Assembly (NCBI GenBank): GCA_014208095.1
Contig: JACHMT010000003.1
Span: forward strand, 186,001-250,000
Source of the DNA: Actinospineispora eucalypti
GTDB taxonomy: Bacteria; Actinomycetota; Actinomycetes; Mycobacteriales; Pseudonocardiaceae
DNA: 64,000 nt
Reading direction: 5' to 3'
Position 1 is the stretch's first letter. Each line of letters starts with the position of its first letter. The position numbers were made by a program, and so were the translations under genes. Of the stretch, positions 1 through 64,000 are shown one piece after another. Under the pieces are notes generated by a model. It made no database searches. It worked only from the letters and a program-made list of their open reading frames with translations, and had not been told where the DNA came from.

Positions 1-3000
1 TTGCCATTGGCCAGCGCGCATTCGACGTCGCCTTCGCAGTTGGTGCCGGCGAACTGGCCCTCGCTGTTCAGGCCCCAGCTGTTGTCCTGGCCCGCCTGGC
101 CTCCGGTTTGGCCGCCTTGGCCGGCGCCGGTGCCTTGGCCGTAGCGGCCGCTCGCGGCCAGAGCGTCGAGAACGTCCTGCGCGGCGGCGGTCAACAGCTG
201 GCGGGCCTGGTCACCGGCCTGCTGCCCAGCCACCTGGCCGACCAGCCCGGACACCGCATCGGTCACCCCACCCAAAATCTGTGAGAAGTCATCCAGCGTG
301 GCCGGCCGCGTCCCGTTCCCGCTGTTGGACCCACCCCCGACGTTACTGCCGCCGTTGCCGTTGGAGCTGCCGCCGTTGCCGCCAGCGTTGCCGCCGGAGA
401 CCCCGAGGGTCTTGAGCAGGTCAGAGACGAAGTCGTTGGTCAGGTCGGTGATCTGCTCGGCCAACCCACCGCCGCGCTGACCCTGACTCTGCTGGTTCTG
501 TAGGCCGGACTGGCCCCGACCACTCCCAGGGGTGCGGGACAGACCGAGGGAGTCGAACAGGTCGGACAGAAACTCTGACACCGAGTCACCGATCGACCCG
601 GCCCTGTCCTGGCCCCGCATCGAGCCGGCGATCTTCCCGACCGTGTTGTGCTGAACCTGCGCCGGCTGCCGGCCCTCCCCTTGACCTTCGCTGTGACCGT
701 GCAGGGTGTCCGTCAGCTGGTCGCGCAACTCGTCGAGCGCCTGCTCGGCGCGTCGCCCCGCCTTGTCGCCGGCGATCTTCGACACCATCCCGACGGCGCC
801 ATCGACGAACCGCGACAGCACCCCGTCCAGGCCCTCCAGCTCCTCACCGCTCGTGGAGCGGGACTGGCGCCGGTCGCCACTGCGGGCATCCACGCCCCGG
901 CCGGCGCTCCCGCGGGAAACACCCAACGCCTTGCGCAGGTCGGAGGTGAAGTCCTCGGTCAGCTCCTCAACCGAACCCGCCCGGCGGGTGGACTGGCTGG
1001 CGCCGCCCCCATTAACGGCGCCACCCGCACCACTGCCCCCACCGGTCAACAGCTGCTCGAACATTCCGTTGAGGGCCTGCCAGGTCTGCTGTCCGGCATC
1101 CTTGCCTGCGACCTGGGACACCAGCCCCGAGGCCAGGTCGGTGAAGTTGCCCAGCGCCTGCTCCACACTCATCGGCTGCGCGGCCTGCTGCTGACCCTGC
1201 TGCTGGGCCTGTTGCTGCTGGCCGGCGGCCTTGGCCTCGGCCATGAACGCGTCGTAGTACAAGCCCTCCCAGTAGTCCATGTCATCCGAGAACGGACCCG
1301 GATCACCCGACCCACCCTGCTGGCCGTGCTTGCCTTGCGGGCCGCCGGACCCCCCGAGCAGCTGAAGCAGCCCGGAGACGAAGTTGTTGGTGAGCTGGCC
1401 GATGGCCTGGCTCATGTTGTTCTGCTGAGTCGTCTGCTGCGCACCCTGCTGGCTCTGGCCGGTGTTGTTGCTGTTGCCGGTCGGGCGAGAGATGCCCAGC
1501 TTGCCGAACAGGTCGGACAGGAAGTCGTTGACCGACTCGCTGATCGCCTGACCCAGGCTGCTCTGCTGGTTGCTGCTGCTCGGCTTTTGCGGGGCCTGGG
1601 CCGAGCCGGCGTTGCCGGTGGAGCCCTTGACCCCGAGCAGCTCCAGCAGGTCGGACACGAACCCGTTGGTCAGCTTGCCGATCCCAGCGGCCAGCTGCTG
1701 CTGGCCGGAGCCACCGCTCTGGCCGGCACCGTTCTGCCCGCCACCGTGGTTACCGGCGCCACTACCGAGCAGCTGCTGGAACAGACCGGCAAGGGCCTGC
1801 TGGGTTTGCTTGCCGGCGTTCTTGCCCGCGACCTGGGACACGATCCCGGAGGCCAGGTTCACGAAGTTGCCCAGTGCGTCGTCCAGGTTCGGACGCTGGC
1901 TCGGCTTCTGCGGGGTCTGGCTGGAACCACCGCCGGTGTTGGTGCCGCTGCCGGTGGAGCCCTTGCCGATGCCGAGCAGCTCGAGCAGGTCGGACACGAA
2001 CCCGTTGGTCAGCTTGCTGATCCCGGCGGCGAGTTGCTGCTGCCCGGAGCCACCGTTCTGGGAGCCGCCGGTGTTCTGGTTGGCCGGTGGGCGCTGCTGC
2101 CCGGATCCGCTCTGCCCGCCACCGGTGCCGCCGGTGCCGTTGCCGTCGATGCCGAGCAGTTTCAGCAGGCCGGAGACGAAGTTGTTGGTGAGCTGCCAGA
2201 TGGCCTGGCCGAGGTTGTTCTGTTGGGTCGGCCGCTGCGAACCCTGGTCCTGCTGGCCCTGGCTGGCGCTGTTGCCGGTCGGGTGGGAGATGCCGAGCTT
2301 GCTAAACAGGTCGGACAGGAAGTCGTTGACCGACTCGCTGATCGCCTGACCCAGGCTGCTCTGCTGGCCGTTGCCGGTGCTGGGCTTTTGCGGGGTCTGG
2401 CTGGAACCGCCACCGGTGTTGCTGTTGCCGCCCTTGACGCCGAGCAGCTGCAGCAGGTCGGACACGAACCCGTTGGTCAGCTTGCCGATGCCGGCGGCCA
2501 ACTGCTGCTGGCCGGAGCCACCGTTCTGGGAGCCGCCGGTGTTCTGGTTGGCCGGTGGGCGCTGCTGCCCGGAACCGCCCTGCCCACCACCGTTGCCGCC
2601 GGAGCCGTTGCCGACGCCGAGCAGCTTCAGCAGGCCGGAGACGAAGTCGTTGGTCAGCTGGCCGATGGCCTGGCCGAGGTTGTTCTGCTGGTTGCTGGTG
2701 CTCGGCTTCCGGGGGGTCTGGCTGGAGCCTCCGCCGTTGCTGGTGGAGCCCTTGACGCCCAGCAGCTGCAGCAGCTCGGAGACGAAGTTGTTGGTCAGCT
2801 TGCCGATGTTCTGTGCGAGCTGCTGGCCGGCGCCGTTGTTCTGACCGGACTGCGAGCCGCCGTTCTGGGCGCCGCTGTTCTGGGAGCCGCCGTTGTTGTG
2901 GCTCGGCCGGTCGTTGTGGCCGAGCGCCTGGGTGAACTGGTCGGTCAGCCCCTCGAGGGCCTTGGTGACCTTCTTCGCGGCCTTCTTACCGGCCACGTCC

Positions 3001-5366
3001 TTCACGATCCCGGTGACCATGTCGGTGAACCGGTCGAACACCTCATCCAGGTCCGGCTGCCGCTGGGGGCGCTGCGCACCCTGCCCGGTGCCCCTGGAGT
3101 TCCCAGCGCCACCGTTGCCGCCGCCCTGGACCCCCAACAGCTCCAACAGGTCGGACACGAACCCGTCGGTCAGCTTGCCGATCCCGGCGGCCAACTGCTG
3201 CTGCCCGGAACCACCGTTCTGGTTGGCCGGCGGGCGCTGCTGCCCGGAACCGCTCTGGCCGCCACCGTTACCGGAGCTGTTGCCGCCGACGCCGAGCAGC
3301 TTCAGCAGCCCTGACACGAAGTCGTTGGTCAGCTGGCCGATGGCCTGGCCGAGGTTGTTCTGCTCACTGGTGCCGGTGCTCGGCGTCTGCGGGGCCTGGC
3401 CCGTGCCGGTGTTGCCAGTCGAGCCGTTGACGCCGAGCAGCTTCAGCAGGTCGGACACGAAGCCTTCGGTCAGCGTGGTGATGGCCTGGCTGAGGGCTTG
3501 CTGGGTCGGCCGCTGCGAGCCCTGTGAGCCCTGCTGGCTTGTGTTGGTGCTTGGGCGCTGCGGGGTCTGGCCCGCGTTGTTGTCACCGGTGTTGGTGCCG
3601 ATCGCCTTGAGCAGGTCGGACACGAAGTCGTGGGTGAGGTCGCTGATCTGGTTGCCCCAGTCACCCTGGGGGGTGGGCCGGTGCTGGGCGCCACCGCCGC
3701 TGTGGGGCAGGCTGCCGATCAGGTCCCGGACGAACCCGAGGATTCCGTCGATGAAGTTGTCGGTCGTGCCGCCGGCCGGGGAGCGGTGGAGCTTGCTCGA
3801 CCAGGAGGCCGGGTCGTTCTCGGAGGGACTGTCGTGCTGCGGGCGAGGACGGTAGGTCTGCGGGGGGCCGCGTCCGCCGCCAACACCGGGGTGGTGGCCG
3901 ATCAGGCTCGGGTCCTGGTCGGTGCAGCCGAGCGCCAGGCAGGTGATGGGCCGCTCATCGGTCTCGGGAGCTAGGCCCGAGCCGCCGTGCGAAACATGTT
4001 TGGGGGCGCGCTCGGGCATGGCGAGCTGAAGATCGCTCGAACCACCGGCGGCGCCGCTGTGTTTGTTGAGTTTGTTGCTGACCGCGAGCGCTTCGGAGAC
4101 CTGCCCGGAGAGTTCGATCAGCGCGGCGCGGGTGTGCGTACCGGCCTGCGTGCCGGCCACCCGGCCGACGATCCCGGAGACCAGGTCGACCATCCCGCCC
4201 ATCATCTGCTCGACCTGTTCGGCCGCGGGCGCCTTCACCGCGGCACCGCCGGAGCCGGCCTGGTGGGTGGTCGACGCGCGGAACGGGTCCACATCGGCGA
4301 GGCGCTCATCCACCAACCGGTCGGCCGCGGCCAGCCGGCCGGCAACGATCCGGTCGCTCAGGGCGGGGTTGCTGTCGGCCTTCGCGGCGGCGTCCGACAC
4401 CCGAGCGGTGACCTCACGCGTCAACGCGGCCGGGGTCGCGGCCGAGTCGCCAGCCCCACCACCGCGAGTGGTGTGCTCGGCCAGACGCTCCAACAGACCC
4501 GACACGAGCTTCGTCACCACGGTACCAACCGAGTCGGCCGTCTCACCGGCAGGCACCGAGGCCGTCCGGTCGGCGTGCTCGGCTCCGGCGGCGATCGTGC
4601 GCTTCGGCTCGGCGGCGACGCGCTTCTCCGAAGTGACTTGGTCCGTGGCGTTCCGGTCGGCGATGGGCTGCTTCGGCTCGGTGGCGGTCTGCGCCTGGAA
4701 GGTCGCCTCACCCCTGCCCGGCTCCGGCTCACCGGCCGCGCCGACGATCTTGTCGAGCAGGGCGCTGATGAACTCGGTCACCGGGTCGACAACGGAGTGA
4801 ACTGTCTGGCCGAGGTTACCGTCCGTGGCCGCCGGGCGGGCCGTGGCCACATCGTGCTGGCCACCGCTCGTGGCCGCGGCCTGCTGGCCACCGGTGCCGT
4901 CGTGGCCACCAACGAATGGCCACTCGACCGAATCCGTGGCCACGGACTCGGTGGCCACCGCCGGCTGGTACCGGGCACGCAATTCGGACAATGACCGCGC
5001 CGGGGTGACCGTGGCCATCGTGGCCATCCGGCCATCCAAACCAACGGATTCCCCACCGCTATTGCTCACCGGCGTCGGCTTTTGTTCGCCGCCACCGAAT
5101 GAGAACGACCAATCGGATTCATCCGCGTCCGTGTCGGAGTCCTGCTCGTAAGCGACCAATTGCACGGCGTCCTGCCCGGCAGCATTCGACACCGTCGAAT
5201 CAGAAGCGAACTGGGCGGAAATGAACGTCGCGGCCATCCACAGCATCGCGGCGCCGAGCAACACCTTCCCGAACGACAGCGACGCCGCGACCGACAGCAG
5301 CCCGCGCAGCACCATCGACCCGGCGGCGCTGCTGCGCCTCCGGGCGGGTGCGGTCGGGGTAGCCAT
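1..5366 (-). CDS. Giant paralogous membrane-anchored repeat protein, 5' part only
   Basis: The frame opens at ATG 5366 (minus strand) after AGGAG placed 11 nt upstream, the same spacing as in the central giant gene, and stays open for about 1,788 codons to the window edge, so the 3' end is missing. The first 60 residues match the central giant protein closely: Arg-rich start, then a membrane helix with SLSFGKVLLGAAMLWMAAT, then a short acidic stretch. A conserved Cys pair (CLALGC) occurs near residue 475. The rest is Gly/Gln/Asn-rich linkers separating about 16 copies of a 17-residue amphipathic repeat (IGxLTNxFVSxLLxLLG) and several 40-residue repeats containing VAGKKA/VAGKDA. A segment with DYWEGLYYDAFMAEAKA is shared with the central gene. 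Near the window edge it enters a Cys-containing stretch (FAGTNCEGDVECALA), which matches the start of the Cys-rich region of the central protein. Unlike the central protein it has no lytic-transglycosylase domain in this part. Function unknown; membrane or envelope location is inferred. Confidence 0.85.
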   Translation of the reverse strand, partial: MATPTAPARRRSSAAGSMVLRGLLSVAASLSFGKVLLGAAMLWMAATFISAQFASDSTVSNAAGQDAVQLVAYEQDSDTDADESDWSFSFGGGEQKPTPVSNSGGESVGLDGRMATMATVTPARSLSELRARYQPAVATESVATDSVEWPFVGGHDGTGGQQAAATSGGQHDVATARPAATDGNLGQTVHSVVDPVTEFISALLDKIVGAAGEPEPGRGEATFQAQTATEPKQPIADRNATDQVTSEKRVAAEPKRTIAAGAEHADRTASVPAGETADSVGTVVTKLVSGLLERLAEHTTRGGGAGDSAATPAALTREVTARVSDAAAKADSNPALSDRIVAGRLAAADRLVDERLADVDPFRASTTHQAGSGGAAVKAPAAEQVEQMMGGMVDLVSGIVGRVAGTQAGTHTRAALIELSGQVSEALAVSNKLNKHSGAAGGSSDLQLAMPERAPKHVSHGGSGLAPETDERPITCLALGCTDQDPSLIGHHPGVGGGRGPPQTYRPRPQHDSPSENDPASWSSKLHRSPAGGTTDNFIDGILGFVRDLIGSLPHSGGGAQHRPTPQGDWGNQISDLTHDFVSDLLKAIGTNTGDNNAGQTPQRPSTNTSQQGSQGSQRPTQQALSQAITTLTEGFVSDLLKLLGVNGSTGNTGTGQAPQTPSTGTSEQNNLGQAIGQLTNDFVSGLLKLLGVGGNSSGNGGGQSGSGQQRPPANQNGGSGQQQLAAGIGKLTDGFVSDLLELLGVQGGGNGGAGNSRGTGQGAQRPQRQPDLDEVFDRFTDMVTGIVKDVAGKKAAKKVTKALEGLTDQFTQALGHNDRPSHNNGGSQNSGAQNGGSQSGQNNGAGQQLAQNIGKLTNNFVSELLQLLGVKGSTSNGGGSSQTPRKPSTSNQQNNLGQAIGQLTNDFVSGLLKLLGVGNGSGGNGGGQGGSGQQRPPANQNTGGSQNGGSGQQQLAAGIGKLTNGFVSDLLQLLGVKGGNSNTGGGSSQTPQKPSTGNGQQSSLGQAISESVNDFLSDLFSKLGISHPTGNSASQGQQDQGSQRPTQQNNLGQAIWQLTNNFVSGLLKLLGIDGNGTGGTGGGQSGSGQQRPPANQNTGGSQNGGSGQQQLAAGISKLTNGFVSDLLELLGIGKGSTGSGTNTGGGSSQTPQKPSQRPNLDDALGNFVNLASGIVSQVAGKNAGKQTQQALAGLFQQLLGSGAGNHGGGQNGAGQSGGSGQQQLAAGIGKLTNGFVSDLLELLGVKGSTGNAGSAQAPQKPSSSNQQSSLGQAISESVNDFLSDLFGKLGISRPTGNSNNTGQSQQGAQQTTQQNNMSQAIGQLTNNFVSGLLQLLGGSGGPQGKHGQQGGSGDPGPFSDDMDYWEGLYYDAFMAEAKAAGQQQQAQQQGQQQAAQPMSVEQALGNFTDLASGLVSQVAGKDAGQQTWQALNGMFEQLLTGGGSGAGGAVNGGGASQSTRRAGSVEELTEDFTSDLRKALGVSRGSAGRGVDARSGDRRQSRSTSGEELEGLDGVLSRFVDGAVGMVSKIAGDKAGRRAEQALDELRDQLTDTLHGHSEGQGEGRQPAQVQHNTVGKIAGSMRGQDRAGSIGDSVSEFLSDLFDSLGLSRTPGSGRGQSGLQNQQSQGQRGGGLAEQITDLTNDFVSDLLKTLGVSGGNAGGNGGSSNGNGGSNVGGGSNSGNGTRPATLDDFSQILGGVTDAVSGLVGQVAGQQAGDQARQLLTAAAQDVLDALAASGRYGQGTGAGQGGQTGGQAGQDNSWGLNSEGQFAGTNCEGDVECALANG
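4844..5026. repeat. Cluster of nine TGGCCA sites in the 5' coding part of the divergent paralogue
   Basis: TGGCCA starts at 4844, 4858, 4885, 4903, 4917, 4937, 4952, 5012 and 5021, mostly within RTGGCCAY. In this GC content one site per about 3 kb is expected. Confidence 0.75.
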
Positions 5367-5421
5367 CGAAACGTCACTCCTCGGAACGGCCAAGACTCTG
5401 ACGGGACCTGCGCGTACTGGA

Positions 5422-5465
5422 GTGATCGGAACCAACCACGGTCGGCGTCACGTGGAGGAACATCC
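5422..5465 (-). promoter_or_regulatory. Conserved proximal upstream element (E1) of the divergent paralogue
   Basis: On the minus strand it starts with GGATGTTCCTCCACGTGA and contains GACCGTGG, ending in GGTTCCGATCAC. The start GGATG lies 99 nt before the start codon. Close copies stand at the same distance before the other two giant genes. Confidence 0.65.
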
Positions 5466-59822: not shown

Positions 59823-59888
59823 CCGCCCGAGGCCCGCCCCTTCTCGATGCGTGTCCTCCCCCAACCCATCGAGAAAGGACCACATCCC

Positions 59889-60551
59889 ATGTCCGTCTTT
59901 ACCGCCCGCCCGGTACACCTGCACCTGGCGTTGACCTACCTGCGGCTGGCCGACCTGGTGTGCCAGACGCTGGCCGACCACGGCGTCGACTGCGCGCCGT
60001 TGGTCTGGCTGTCCCGCACCCTCGATGTGCCGGCCGCCGAGCTGCGCACCACCGTGCACTACGCGCTACACCTGGGCATCTGCCCCGACCCAACGGGCCC
60101 GGTGCTGTACTGCCTGCCCCGGCAGCCGATCGCGGCCGGCTTCGTGCCGGTGCATCGGGGCGGCCGGATGCTGCTGCGGTTGCCCGGGTGTCGGCTGCGC
60201 CCCGCGTTGGGGCTGTCCGGGCAGCGCGTCGGGCCGGTCCCGGCTCACGAGCGTGGCACCACGATCGGCGCCGGCGAGTTGGCGTACACGGTCTGCCGGC
60301 TGACGCTGATGGCGGGAAACTGGCTGCCTACCAGCCCCGATCCGGCCAGGTATCTGTTCGAGCTGGTTGCCGAGGCGTGGCGGCACGCTTCGGGCACCCG
60401 GCGCCTGGGCGGGTTGGGGATTCACCGGGCCAGCTTCGACACGCCGATCGCGTTCAGCGCCGGTGCGATGACGAACCGGCTGGAGTTGGTCACCAACCGG
60501 CACGAGCTGGTCAACGTCTACCCGATCCCGGCCTGCCGGGGTGATCGGTGA
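59889..60551 (+). CDS. Hypothetical protein with possible N-terminal winged helix
   Basis: The protein is 220 residues long. ATG 59889 is preferred over the in-frame ATG at 59847 because a GAGAAAGGA ribosome-binding sequence lies about 10 nt before it, and because the first 14 codons of the longer form have no protein-like character. The giant gene ends 66 bp upstream and the next gene overlaps the stop by 1 nt, so the three probably form one transcript. Residues about 10-60 (LALTYLRLADLVCQTL, then LSRTLDVPAAELRTTVHYAL) could form a winged helix. The second half is mixed alpha/beta with a Trp-containing LMAGNWLPTSPDP and RLGGLGIHRASFD. No signal peptide or membrane helix is seen, so it is likely cytoplasmic. 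I do not recognise the family. Confidence 0.75.
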   Translation: MSVFTARPVHLHLALTYLRLADLVCQTLADHGVDCAPLVWLSRTLDVPAAELRTTVHYALHLGICPDPTGPVLYCLPRQPIAAGFVPVHRGGRMLLRLPGCRLRPALGLSGQRVGPVPAHERGTTIGAGELAYTVCRLTLMAGNWLPTSPDPARYLFELVAEAWRHASGTRRLGGLGIHRASFDTPIAFSAGAMTNRLELVTNRHELVNVYPIPACRGDR

Positions 60552-61162
60552 TGCGGCTGTCGCCTCGCCCGTTGCGCCGGGCCGTGCTGCCGGTGCGCAA
60601 TCCGCACGGCGTGATCGGGACCGCGACCGTGGTTGCGCCCGGGCTGGCGTTGACCGCACTGCATGTGATCACCCCGGAGCGTCCGGGCTCGCTGTCCCTG
60701 GGCTCGAACTACCCGGTCGTCGCGGTCGAGACCCTGCCGGTGGCCGAGTACCACGGGGTGCAGGAGCACGCGCACCGTTCCCAGCGGCGCGCGCAACGCC
60801 TGGTCGGCGGCGACATCGACGTCGCGCTGGGCACAGTGGATCTCGTGCTGCTTGCGGTGCCCGGACTGCACGGCCCGGTGCTGTCCCCCCGCGCCACCCC
60901 GGTCGAGGTGGGTGAGCACCTGGTCGTGCCGGGTTATCCGGGCGGACACTGGTGTGTCAGCCAGGGGCCGGTGACCGGCGCCGACGAGGCGGACTTCGCG
61001 GTTCAGATGCTGCTCGGTCCGGGTGCCAGCGGGGCGCCCGCGCTGGACCGGGACCACCGGCTGGCCGGTGTGGTCACCCTGGACCACGAGGCCGCCACGG
61101 TGTGCATCGGCCCGGTACTGGTGTCCACCTTCCTGCAACAGCTGCAGGCGGTGGTCGGATGA
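60551..61162 (+). CDS. Trypsin-like serine protease without signal peptide
   Basis: The protein is 203 residues long. ATG 60551 shares its A with the last base of the upstream TGA, which implies translational coupling; GTG 60548 is possible too. The chymotrypsin-fold triad is visible: H38 in LALTALHV (the TAAHC position), D97 in VDLVLLAV (the DIALLxL position; D90 is an alternative), and S160 in GPGASGAP (the GNSGGP position). The length is close to a minimal S1 domain. There is no secretion signal, no membrane helix and no PDZ domain, so it resembles the cytoplasmic trypsin-like peptidases found in bacterial multi-protein signalling or conflict systems rather than secreted digestive enzymes. 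Its position next to a 17,592-residue protein makes processing of the giant protein, or of its paralogues, an attractive but unproven role. Confidence 0.8.
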   Translation: MRLSPRPLRRAVLPVRNPHGVIGTATVVAPGLALTALHVITPERPGSLSLGSNYPVVAVETLPVAEYHGVQEHAHRSQRRAQRLVGGDIDVALGTVDLVLLAVPGLHGPVLSPRATPVEVGEHLVVPGYPGGHWCVSQGPVTGADEADFAVQMLLGPGASGAPALDRDHRLAGVVTLDHEAATVCIGPVLVSTFLQQLQAVVG

Positions 61163-61492: not shown

Positions 61493-61760
61493 TCCGGCGG
61501 CGTCCGGCGCGGTGGCCGGACAGCGCTGGCTGGCCCGGTGGCCGCGGTTGCGCGGAGTGACCGACGGCTGCCGTGACCGCCGGATCCGCGGTCCGTAGGT
61601 AAGCCGGGTGACATCTCGGTATGGATTTACGGGGTAACCGTTGATGGCCGTCGCATTGCGCGTCGTGGGCCAGCGCGTCTCTTTACACCCTGTGTGCGGC
61701 GAAGACAAGACAACATTATTTTGCGTTTCTTAGACAAGCTCTCTGACGATCTAGGATTAT

Positions 61761-62031: not shown

Positions 62032-62075
62032 GGATGTTCCTCCGCGTGACCATGACCGTGGCTGGTTCCGATCAC
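62032..62075 (+). promoter_or_regulatory. Conserved proximal upstream element (E1) of the third paralogue
   Basis: GGATGTTCCTCCGCGTGA, GACCGTGG and GGTTCCGATCAC, starting 98 nt before GTG 62130. The constant distance of about 100 nt in all three genes suggests a promoter, operator or 5'-UTR element. Confidence 0.65.
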
Positions 62076-62129
62076 CTCAGCAGTTCACTCGGCACTCCCC
62101 ACGCCCTTCCACGTCTTGGAGCGACACCC

Positions 62130-64000
62130 GTGAAGATGACCGCGACCTCAGCCGGCAGGCGGTGCATGCGCACCGTCGTGTCGCTGTTGGCGCGCGGGCT
62201 GGGGTCGCTCTCGTTCGGGAAGATTTTGCTCGGCGGCGCGTTGGTGTGGATGGCCGCGGCATTCATTTCGATGGGCGCCGGCGCAATTGATTCGAATTCG
62301 GTGCGGCACGATGCAAATGCCGCGCCGGTCGAATTGGTGGATTACGCCACGCCGGATTCCGACACCGAGGCCGACGATTCCGATCTGACCAACTCGATCG
62401 GATTCGGCAGCGGGAATGTAAAGCCGTCGAAGGTCGGCAACAGCGGCCAGGCGGCCAACGGCCTCGACCCCCGGATGGCCACCATGGCCACGGTTCAGGT
62501 GCGGTCGCTGGCGGACATCCGGGCGCGCAACCAATCGGCGGCCACCGCACCGGTCACGGAGCAGGCCGAGTGGCCACTGCTCGATGGCCAGGCGAATGGC
62601 CACGGTGGGCAGCCGGCCGGGCAGGGTGTGGCCACAGCGGTGGCCAACGCCGGCGCGAAGGCGGAGCGGTTCGCCGGTTCGCTGACCGACTCGATGGCCA
62701 AGACGGTCGAGTCGATCGTGGACCCGGTGATGGACCTCGTGTCCGGTCTGGGTTCGCGCTCCGGTGACTCGCACGGCTCGTCGAACGCCCCGGCTCCGAA
62801 GGACCTGGCCCGTGAGGACGTGCAGCGCCGGATCGAGGAGGAGACCTCGTCGGCGCTGGACCGTGCCCGCAAGGCGACCCCGGCCTCCACCGGCTCGACC
62901 GCGGCGCCCGCCGGTTCGAAGGGCGGCTCGACGAACGGCACCGAGCTGGCCGACTCGGTCGGCAAGTCGGTGAACGAGTTCGTGTCGGACATGCTCGCGC
63001 GGATCGGCAAGTCCGTGTCCGGCTCGACCGGCGAGGTGACCCAGGCGCTCGGCACCGCGCGGGACGCGGTCGCCAAGGCCGGCAGCCAGATCAGGGACGC
63101 TGTCGCGGACGCACGCACCGGCCAGCCCCGCACCGAGCACGCCGCCGGCGCCCGGATCGAGCGCGCCGTGGACCGTGCCGACTCGCGGATCAAGCAGGCC
63201 GTGGCCCGGGACGGTGCGGCCGACCCGAGCGACGCACGGATCCAGCGGGCCGTTGCCCAGATGCGGCCGACCGTCGAGCGGGCGCTGTCGCGGGCCGACC
63301 AGGCCGTCACGCGAGCCAGCCAGGCGGCGGCGCCGACCGGTCAGCTGACCGACGTCGAGCAGCTGCGCCGCCTGGCCGACCAGACCGCCGACAGCGACAC
63401 CGCGCAGCCGGCTTCCTACGCACGCCAGGCAAATATGAGCCCGGGCAACACCAGCCAGAGCAACCGGTCGAGCGCCAAGGCGCCGTCGGCCGAGCAGGTC
63501 GACCAGCTGATGGGCGGCGTGGTCGACCTCGTGTCCGGCATCGTCACCACCGTCGCCGGCAAGCAGGCCGGCGCCCAGACTCACCAGGCCCTCGCTGCCC
63601 TCGCCGACCAGGTCAGCCAGGCCCTCGCGGCCAGCAACAAGCTGCCTACCAACGCGAACGGCGGCGGCTCGGACGACCGGTTCACCGCGATGCCCGAGCG
63701 GGCGCGCACCAACGGCGACACCCAGCCCGGCCTCACCGGCGACGTGGACCCGACCCGGCCGGAGTTCACCGGCCAGCTCGGCCGCAACGTCGGCGACCGG
63801 GGCCGGTCCAGCGAGCTCACCGCGCAGGCCGCGCGCGGCCCACCGGCCGCCGGCAACAACCTCCGCGAGACCCTCCAGAGCAGCGTTGACAACTTCATCG
63901 GCCAGCTGACCAAGCTGCTCGGCGTCTCCGCCCCCCAGGCGTCGCAGACCCCGCAGAACCAGGCGCAGGCCGCGGTGAACCCCGAAGACGTTCCCGAAAT
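62130..64000 (+). CDS. Third giant-family paralogue, 5' part only
   Basis: The frame starts at GTG 62130, 8 nt after GGAG; ATG 62136 two codons later is the alternative. It remains open to the window edge (about 623 codons), so the 3' end is missing. The N-terminus carries the family membrane helix (LSFGKILLGGALVWMAAAFI), a short acidic segment, and the conserved RSLADIRAR stretch that corresponds to RSLSELRAR in the other two genes. Then follow Ala/Arg-rich helices with repeated ADSRI/ERAVDRA patterns, a 40-residue repeat (AEQVDQLMGGVVDLVSG, TVAGKQAGAQTH) almost identical to the first one of the central protein, and an amphipathic repeat near the edge. It lies head-to-tail behind the central gene with its own promoter-region elements, 967 bp after the protease gene. 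Confidence 0.85.
   Translation, partial: MKMTATSAGRRCMRTVVSLLARGLGSLSFGKILLGGALVWMAAAFISMGAGAIDSNSVRHDANAAPVELVDYATPDSDTEADDSDLTNSIGFGSGNVKPSKVGNSGQAANGLDPRMATMATVQVRSLADIRARNQSAATAPVTEQAEWPLLDGQANGHGGQPAGQGVATAVANAGAKAERFAGSLTDSMAKTVESIVDPVMDLVSGLGSRSGDSHGSSNAPAPKDLAREDVQRRIEEETSSALDRARKATPASTGSTAAPAGSKGGSTNGTELADSVGKSVNEFVSDMLARIGKSVSGSTGEVTQALGTARDAVAKAGSQIRDAVADARTGQPRTEHAAGARIERAVDRADSRIKQAVARDGAADPSDARIQRAVAQMRPTVERALSRADQAVTRASQAAAPTGQLTDVEQLRRLADQTADSDTAQPASYARQANMSPGNTSQSNRSSAKAPSAEQVDQLMGGVVDLVSGIVTTVAGKQAGAQTHQALAALADQVSQALAASNKLPTNANGGGSDDRFTAMPERARTNGDTQPGLTGDVDPTRPEFTGQLGRNVGDRGRSSELTAQAARGPPAAGNNLRETLQSSVDNFIGQLTKLLGVSAPQASQTPQNQAQAAVNPEDVPE
62476..62700. repeat. Cluster of eight TGGCCA sites in the 5' coding part of the third paralogue
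   Basis: Sites start at 62476, 62485, 62571, 62585, 62597, 62629, 62641 and 62695. They fall in different reading phases (encoding for example MAT, WP and GH), so the DNA word rather than the peptide is conserved. Confidence 0.75.

Follow-up and report, generated by a model that had tools for sequence, protein, structure and literature searches.

A two-gene protease module linked to giant genes in Actinospineispora eucalypti and possibly detached from a giant-protein system

The window analyzed here, a 64,000-nucleotide stretch of Actinospineispora eucalypti (C3:186001-250000 in a genome of 9.62 Mb and 7 contigs), carries a giant open reading frame (ORF), gC, followed by two small genes: P1, whose product is of no known family, and P2, which encodes a trypsin-like S1 protease. 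Based on sequence comparison, the P1-P2 pair may be a detached two-gene copy of a module, made of a P1-like stretch and an S1 protease, that belongs to a giant-protein system and is usually built into the giants themselves; we give this reading a probability of about 0.4. The pair looks detached from such a system because its linkage to giants is conserved and the same order recurs in embedded form, and this order, together with a fusion of both parts behind another giant (gM), suggests that P1 and P2 work together.

Linkage was examined in C3 1-1,000,000, 120 kb of C1, and 60 kb of C5. The C3 cluster comprises gA (19,738 amino acids, aa), gB (40,943 aa), gC (17,592 aa), gD (26,771 aa), gF (15,894 aa), gG (16,886 aa), gH (13,354 aa), gI (16,488 aa), gK (14,950 aa), and gL (58,228 aa); only 67 bp separate the start of gA from the contig end, and this ORF may be truncated. 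On C1, gM has at least 26,900 aa, with a start beyond the stretch taken and an open frame of 28,592 aa, and gN on C5 has 12,469 aa. A search of the 8 kb behind each of these 12 giants (12-58 kaa) identified a P1-P2 pair directly behind five of them (gA, gB, gC, gD, and gL). The distance from the giant stop to the P1 start is 86 bp for gA, 65 bp for gB, 66 bp for gC, and 73 bp for gL; at gD, where the P1 start codon is uncertain, the match runs from P1 residue 26, which lies 127 bp past the giant stop. The fusion behind gM is a single protein of 601 aa, in which residues 142-283 match the P1 profile (34.9 bits) and residues 303-489 match the protease (91.5 bits). To our knowledge, the frames of gL (C3:815157-989843, reverse strand) and gB (C3:68604-191435) are among the largest bacterial ORFs known. 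A second, partial P2 lies behind the P2 of gD (approximately C3:329741-330215), and its match shifts frame at the catalytic-serine stretch.

The module also occurs inside the giants. Profiles built from P1 and P2 relatives, which include a few of the sequences counted, identified 21 protease stretches within giants of this genome (independent E-value < 0.01), 15 of which have a P1 stretch no more than 250 aa ahead. With an E-value limit of 0.01, Pfam Trypsin_2 is found at 39 places genome-wide, 33 of which exceed the curated cut-off; 22 of the 39 (18 above the cut-off) are within frames of at least 8,912 aa; the remaining places are the five standalone P2 proteins, the fused gM protein, and 11 elsewhere. 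All 12 giants have either a Trypsin_2 domain inside (nine; E up to 0.01) or a pair behind (gA, gC, and gL). The catalytic residues H, D, and S are kept in 15 of a separate set of 21 embedded segments, hand-picked with weaker matches dropped.

Beyond this genome, the P2 profile matched (E up to 1e-8) in 13 of 62 same-genus genomes, own included. The match is within frames of 6.8-21.9 kaa in seven of the 12 other genomes; two (G007 and G023) have CvpA-trypsin (MarP-like) proteins, G020 has a standalone pair, G027 has a fragment, and G005 was matched and left out of the frame scan. In the giants of five other genomes (G033, G021, G064, G010, and G337, the last from another genus), a P1 stretch directly precedes the protease, at a distance of up to 181 bp, for 12 of 13 protease stretches; three of these proteases and three of these P1 stretches were profile rows. 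P1 domains were identified in 8 of 15 same-genus genomes, hand-selected for earlier matches or large size and not random, and 25 of the 28 matches are in open frames of at least 3,209 aa. Searches for P1 gave a match in one of 397 genomes order-wide and in four of 297 family-wide (own included), and these negatives are weak because 8-10 candidates were scored per genome. The initial annotation had proposed P2 as a maturation or activation protease for the giant, with a lack of linkage elsewhere as one of the findings that would count against it; linkage is conserved, since the pair recurs at further giants and the domain pair in giants of other species.

Among named genome contigs, no related loci were found with the single query P0002, and alignment A4 as the query returned two, from a Pseudonocardiales metagenome-assembled genome (MGR_bin279, apparently the source of the G020 contig) and Streptomyces. 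The former is a standalone P1-P2 pair (L112:2-856) that follows a gene encoding a LysM domain, and both junctions are ATGA overlaps of 4 nt; its contig of 3,328 bp ends inside the LysM gene, so that a giant is not demonstrable there. The Streptomyces cylindrosporus locus (L113:9971-11500) was rejected as a different trypsin-like frame running into an NTPase-like frame, which we take to be of the NTPase type. Viral contigs contained no relatives of P1-P2, and the plasmid search gave one distant Bernardetia match (E 0.01). The P2 fragment of G027 (L084:1432-1881, reverse strand) adjoins an apparent PP2C-type phosphatase, as judged by eye.

At the window locus (Table 1), the coordinates agree with the arrangement initially described for the two genes, which follow the giant in the same direction after a short gap and have one base in common between the P1 TGA and the P2 ATG, with P1 first and the protease second. 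The giant is read as one coding frame because GC content at the third codon position was the highest of the three positions in all 35 consecutive 1.5-kb pieces. Its domains above the Pfam cut-offs are DUF4781, MarR_2, and a C-terminal MFS, with HATPase_c below cut-off; its N-terminus is hydrophobic as judged by eye, and profile and Pfam scans found no P1- or P2-like domain inside it. A scan around P1-P2 for promoters and terminators gave a single promoter-like site, downstream of P2, and no terminator. A divergent giant lies on one side of gC and a tandem giant on the other, and their N-termini are similar around SFGKxLLG...WMAA. The C-termini of the giants vary, with MFS in gC, a kinase-like region in gD, a protease region in gF, and an HNH-like stretch (CPHCNQSKG, by eye) in gH (C3:564816-604880); gG2 and gJ seemingly have PP2C-like C-termini (by eye).

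Table 1. Features of the P1-P2 locus and its surroundings (window positions).
Feature	Position	Strand	Description
Divergent giant	3-5435	-	
Giant ORF gC	7044-59822	+	17,592 aa
Leader M-T-A-R-G-P-P	59819-59839	+	Starts on the giant stop (ATGA); putative translation
Gap from gC to P1	59823-59888		66 bp
Shine-Dalgarno-like AGAAAGGA of P1	59872-59879	+	Sequence reading
P1	59889-60551	+	220 aa, ATG start, no Pfam/PADLOC/PDB match
P2	60551-61162	+	203 aa, S1 protease (Trypsin_2, PF13365)
Catalytic His38 codon	60662-60664	+	
Catalytic Asp97 codon	60839-60841	+	
Catalytic Ser160 codon	61028-61030	+	GASGAP
Promoter-like site	61731-61760		Downstream of P2
Next giant, start	62034-63998	+	C3:248034-328349, 26,771 aa, own P1-P2 pair downstream

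P2 matches Pfam Trypsin_2 (PF13365) over the whole profile (1-144 of 144) with 48.1 bits against a cut-off of 27.6. H38, D97, and S160 are invariant in an alignment of P2 with 12 relatives of 31-68% identity (13 sequences), and the GxSG motif is present, which bears out the earlier description of a trypsin-like protease with an intact triad. Its proposed cytoplasmic location is plausible, as no signal peptide or transmembrane segment was seen in P2 by eye, without a predictor. The ratio of nonsynonymous to synonymous substitution rates is below 1 in all 10 paralogue pairs for both P2 (0.27-0.59) and P1 (0.30-0.94, with the top three values from pairs that include the gD copy), so both are more than chance ORFs. 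By sequence, the closest solved relatives of P2 are 3k6z (46.1 bits), HtrA, and V8-type proteases; we take entry 3k6z, described in the search record as a “possible membrane-associated serine protease,” to be MarP. These relatives could point to an ordinary housekeeping protease of the MarP/HtrA type that is located here by accident, but this is very improbable given the linkage at six loci and the embedded copies. Moreover, P2 scores 18.7 bits against a cut-off of 250 for the MarP model NF033740, Trypsin_2 is its sole Pfam match with no PDZ or CvpA domain, and the protein ends approximately 29 residues past that match.

P1 had no credible match in Pfam (E up to 1), NCBIfam, PADLOC, or PDB, and none of 13 P1-like members matched the trypsin partner family Trypco at E up to 0.1 in a Pfam copy that presumably contains both Trypco models. 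From the alignment and a low-confidence model, the N-terminal third of P1 looks like a winged helix.

A possible mechanism begins at the stop codon of the giant, where ribosomes that finish the giant would restart at an overlapping ATGA or GTGA and continue to P1 and P2, such that the protease would be made together with, and only after, the complete giant. P1 may act as a dedicated partner that positions or gates P2, and P2 may cut within the giant assembly to release or activate its parts, with embedded copies acting in cis. Of these steps, the target of P2 is the least certain. We slightly favor processing or activation inside the giant assembly over an effector role against other proteins because most copies are tethered in cis and the detached form starts on the giant stop. 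Several observations weigh against a detached processing module. Neither pair nor fusion was found within 8 kb behind 6 of the 12 giants (gF, gG, gH, gI, gK, and gN), and the sole standalone pair seen outside this genome, that of G020, stands beside a LysM gene. Twelve of the 27 P1 stretches in the giants of this genome are not followed by a protease, which means that P1 does not strictly partner with one, and catalysis is not always kept, as five of the 21 inspected embedded copies are degenerate and one has E for D. AlphaFold models from two-row alignments were too poor to use, also for judging a double beta-barrel fold in P2 (mean predicted local distance difference test of 44.4 for P1 and 36.7 for P2). 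No convincing cleavage motif or signature was found in the sequences examined; the proposal of a maturation or activation protease is supported in part, through the tie of the module to giants, and cleavage of the giant by P2 would be hypothetical. The 12 lone P1-like stretches are in gA, gB, gD, gK, gL, gM, and gN, and the P1 domain may have other partners.

In the effector role, the giant would sense signals or act as a scaffold, and P1-P2 (or an embedded copy) would be a signalling protease that, once activated, cuts other cell proteins, as has been proposed for trypsin-like domains in bacterial conflict systems. We regard this alternative as a close rival of somewhat lower probability. It is consistent with embedded modules that adjoin FHA domains in gG and gN and an APH-kinase-like region in gD, where TCAD9 also matches below cut-off (22.7 vs 40 bits), and with a weak PADLOC match of P2 to RT-Protease_XI (E 0.0023). 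A precedent described in PMC7159879 is the pairing of trypsin-like peptidases with Trypco partners in VMAP-MoxR-vWA systems, but P1 without a Pfam match allows no Trypco call and the giant pieces scanned had no vWA or MoxR match.

At the giant stop codon, a short leader with the core R[GA]PP occurs at each of the five standalone loci in this genome (MTMRARGPP, VSARAPP, MTARGPP in the window, MTAARAPP, and MTARGPP), and its start overlaps the stop of the giant (ATGA in four, GTGA in one). The leader is absent at gM and G020, and the five loci are paralogues and thus not independent events. The frame after the core differs from the P1 frame in three of the five, which indicates that the core is kept and the spacer is not. 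No slippery heptamer for a frameshift into the leader was seen by eye. According to PMC12992588, RGPP and RAPP are robust, EF-P-refractory ribosome arrest cores. RGPP is described there as giving the most stable arrest in different contexts, and no tetrapeptide is more under-represented in 10 major bacterial groups; further arrest-permissive or avoided motifs are RSPP, RDPP, RAGP, and HGPP. The paper also states that the motif by itself is insufficient, that an adjacent N-terminal nascent chain in the tunnel is essential for arrest, and that arrest motifs are mainly near the ends of small proteins; the word “giant” is absent from it. The leader has the arrest core, whereas the chain before it would be 3-5 residues if translated from the overlapping start and falls short of an adjacent nascent chain.

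The most surprising result of the analysis is that the same tetrapeptide is arrayed in the giants. In 15 frames of at least 4,073 aa from the stretches of this genome named above (293,455 aa, without one frame of 2,583 aa), 154 copies of RGPP were counted, against 9.4 expected from composition (approximately 16-fold) and 6.1 from dipeptides. This amounts to about one per 1,900 residues, and no other tetrapeptide with 40 or more occurrences is as strongly enriched; 105 sites are left after removal of similar contexts. Each of the 12 giants has 9-25 copies, and the 11 in gC are at residues 357, 1534, 2590, 5929, 7340, 8025, 8711, 9418, 10091, 10763, and 14384. Also enriched are RAPP (48 vs 13.5), RSPP (17 vs 4.4), and HGPP (11 vs 2.5), with mild enrichment of NGPP (6 vs 2.5) and RQPP (6 vs 3.1) and none of KGPP (2 vs 2.2), RTPP, RDPP, RAGP, RAPG, AGPP, or AAPP. 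Non-giant ORFs from a simple ORF caller had one RGPP against 2.3 expected (41,899 aa of this genome) and three in approximately 49,600 aa of C3. In four other species, six frames of 4,000 aa or more, counted after exclusion of a G064 frame that overlaps on the opposite strand, have 47 RGPP against 2.8 (approximately 17-fold) and 26 RAPP against 4.1, with RSPP (2 vs 1.5) and HGPP (1 vs 0.7) not clearly enriched. Other tetrapeptides, mostly repeat-derived, exceed RGPP in enrichment in G033, G064, and G021, RAPP (11) is commoner than RGPP (7) in G021, and the 29,662-aa giant of G337, from another genus, has none against 0.94 expected.

Two simpler sources of the enrichment were considered. A signal at the DNA level was rejected because the enrichment is confined to the coding frame: in the 12 giants, that frame has 147 RGPP against 8.9 (composition) or 5.6 (dipeptides), whereas counts in the other five frames are 5-86, with 19.8-214.5 expected from composition, e.g., 86 against 214.5 (92.4 by dipeptides), with one frame at 27 against 21.2 by dipeptides. 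The third codon positions vary, with 67 distinct 12-mers among the 147 sites, and an excess of CCA at the first proline is partly general to xPP. A plain linker word is disfavored by the dipeptide expectation of 6.1 against 154.

The placement of RGPP suggests a tie to module boundaries and does not by itself separate pausing from cutting. RGPP lies no more than 30 residues after a predicted hydrophobic segment at 28% of the 105 sites (7% at random) and no more than 30 aa from the starts of repeated blocks in 40% (25% at random; ends 29% vs 23%). R[GAS]PP or HGPP follows within 200 residues of 12 of 21 embedded Trypsin_2 domains (17% at random, p approximately 0.0005), with a 22nd domain, in a frame outside the stretches taken, left out of the test. 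If P2 and the embedded proteases cut at R|GPP, the giants would be true polyproteins, and the abundance of RGPP, its position after the proteases, and its proximity to block starts would all be accommodated. We regard this as improbable, as KGPP is flat and HGPP, RSPP, and RAPP are enriched in these giants, a spectrum that is arrest-like and not trypsin-like. On the upstream side of embedded proteases, the distance to a motif does not differ significantly from random (43% vs 34%). The share of sites spanned by repeated blocks is 65% for RGPP and 67% for random positions, and trypsin-like sites do not usually require PP at P2'-P3'.

Arrest accounts for the pattern in this genome better than cleavage does. 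The programmed pauses in giant synthesis would then be RGPP and, at lower frequency, RAPP, joined in this genome by RSPP and HGPP. Each pause would probably be released once the preceding module folds or inserts, and the leader core on the giant stop would deliver the protease only after the complete giant chain. That the giants carry arrays of arrest cores as programmed stops in chains of 12,000-58,000 residues, and that the leader core sets P1-P2 output, is nonetheless rather unlikely on present evidence; the simple form of this idea is somewhat weakened because RDPP and RAGP are not enriched. No report of RGPP arrays in giant proteins was found in the literature surveyed.

We know of no worked-out pathway for the synthesis, folding, or processing of bacterial proteins of tens of thousands of residues. 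The module, a new partner domain with an active-looking protease, is tied to giants at several loci and, in the form of a domain pair, in several species, and P1-P2 offers a 1.3-kb, easily expressed entry point into a giant-protein system that is otherwise hard to handle. If RGPP arrays do pause ribosomes, a highly avoided bacterial peptide would be usable many times in one protein, and the question of how a giant protein is made would become testable.

Compared with known systems, P2 has in common with the Trypsin_2/S1 proteases MarP, HtrA, and V8 the His-Asp-Ser triad, the GxSG motif, and a full-length PF13365 match, and differs from MarP and HtrA in lacking PDZ and the CvpA membrane domain, in its pairing with P1, and in its link to giants. 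Polyprotein-processing proteases, such as the viral 3C-like proteases, are likewise embedded in or beside a very long multidomain protein; here, processing would be hypothetical, and no motif with protease-like specificity was found. The VMAP-MoxR-vWA systems, in which trypsin-like peptidases have mutually exclusive Trypco1 or Trypco2 partner genes (PMC7159879), resemble P1-P2 in combining a trypsin-like peptidase with a dedicated neighboring partner, although P1 belongs to no Pfam family and no VMAP, MoxR, or vWA was found in the giant pieces scanned. Finally, as in the RAPP/RGPP arrest peptides described in PMC12992588, an arrest core stands in a leader before the protease operon and is repeated in the giants, whereas the A. 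eucalypti system differs in the 9-25 RGPP inside each giant and in the 3-5-residue N-terminus of its leader.
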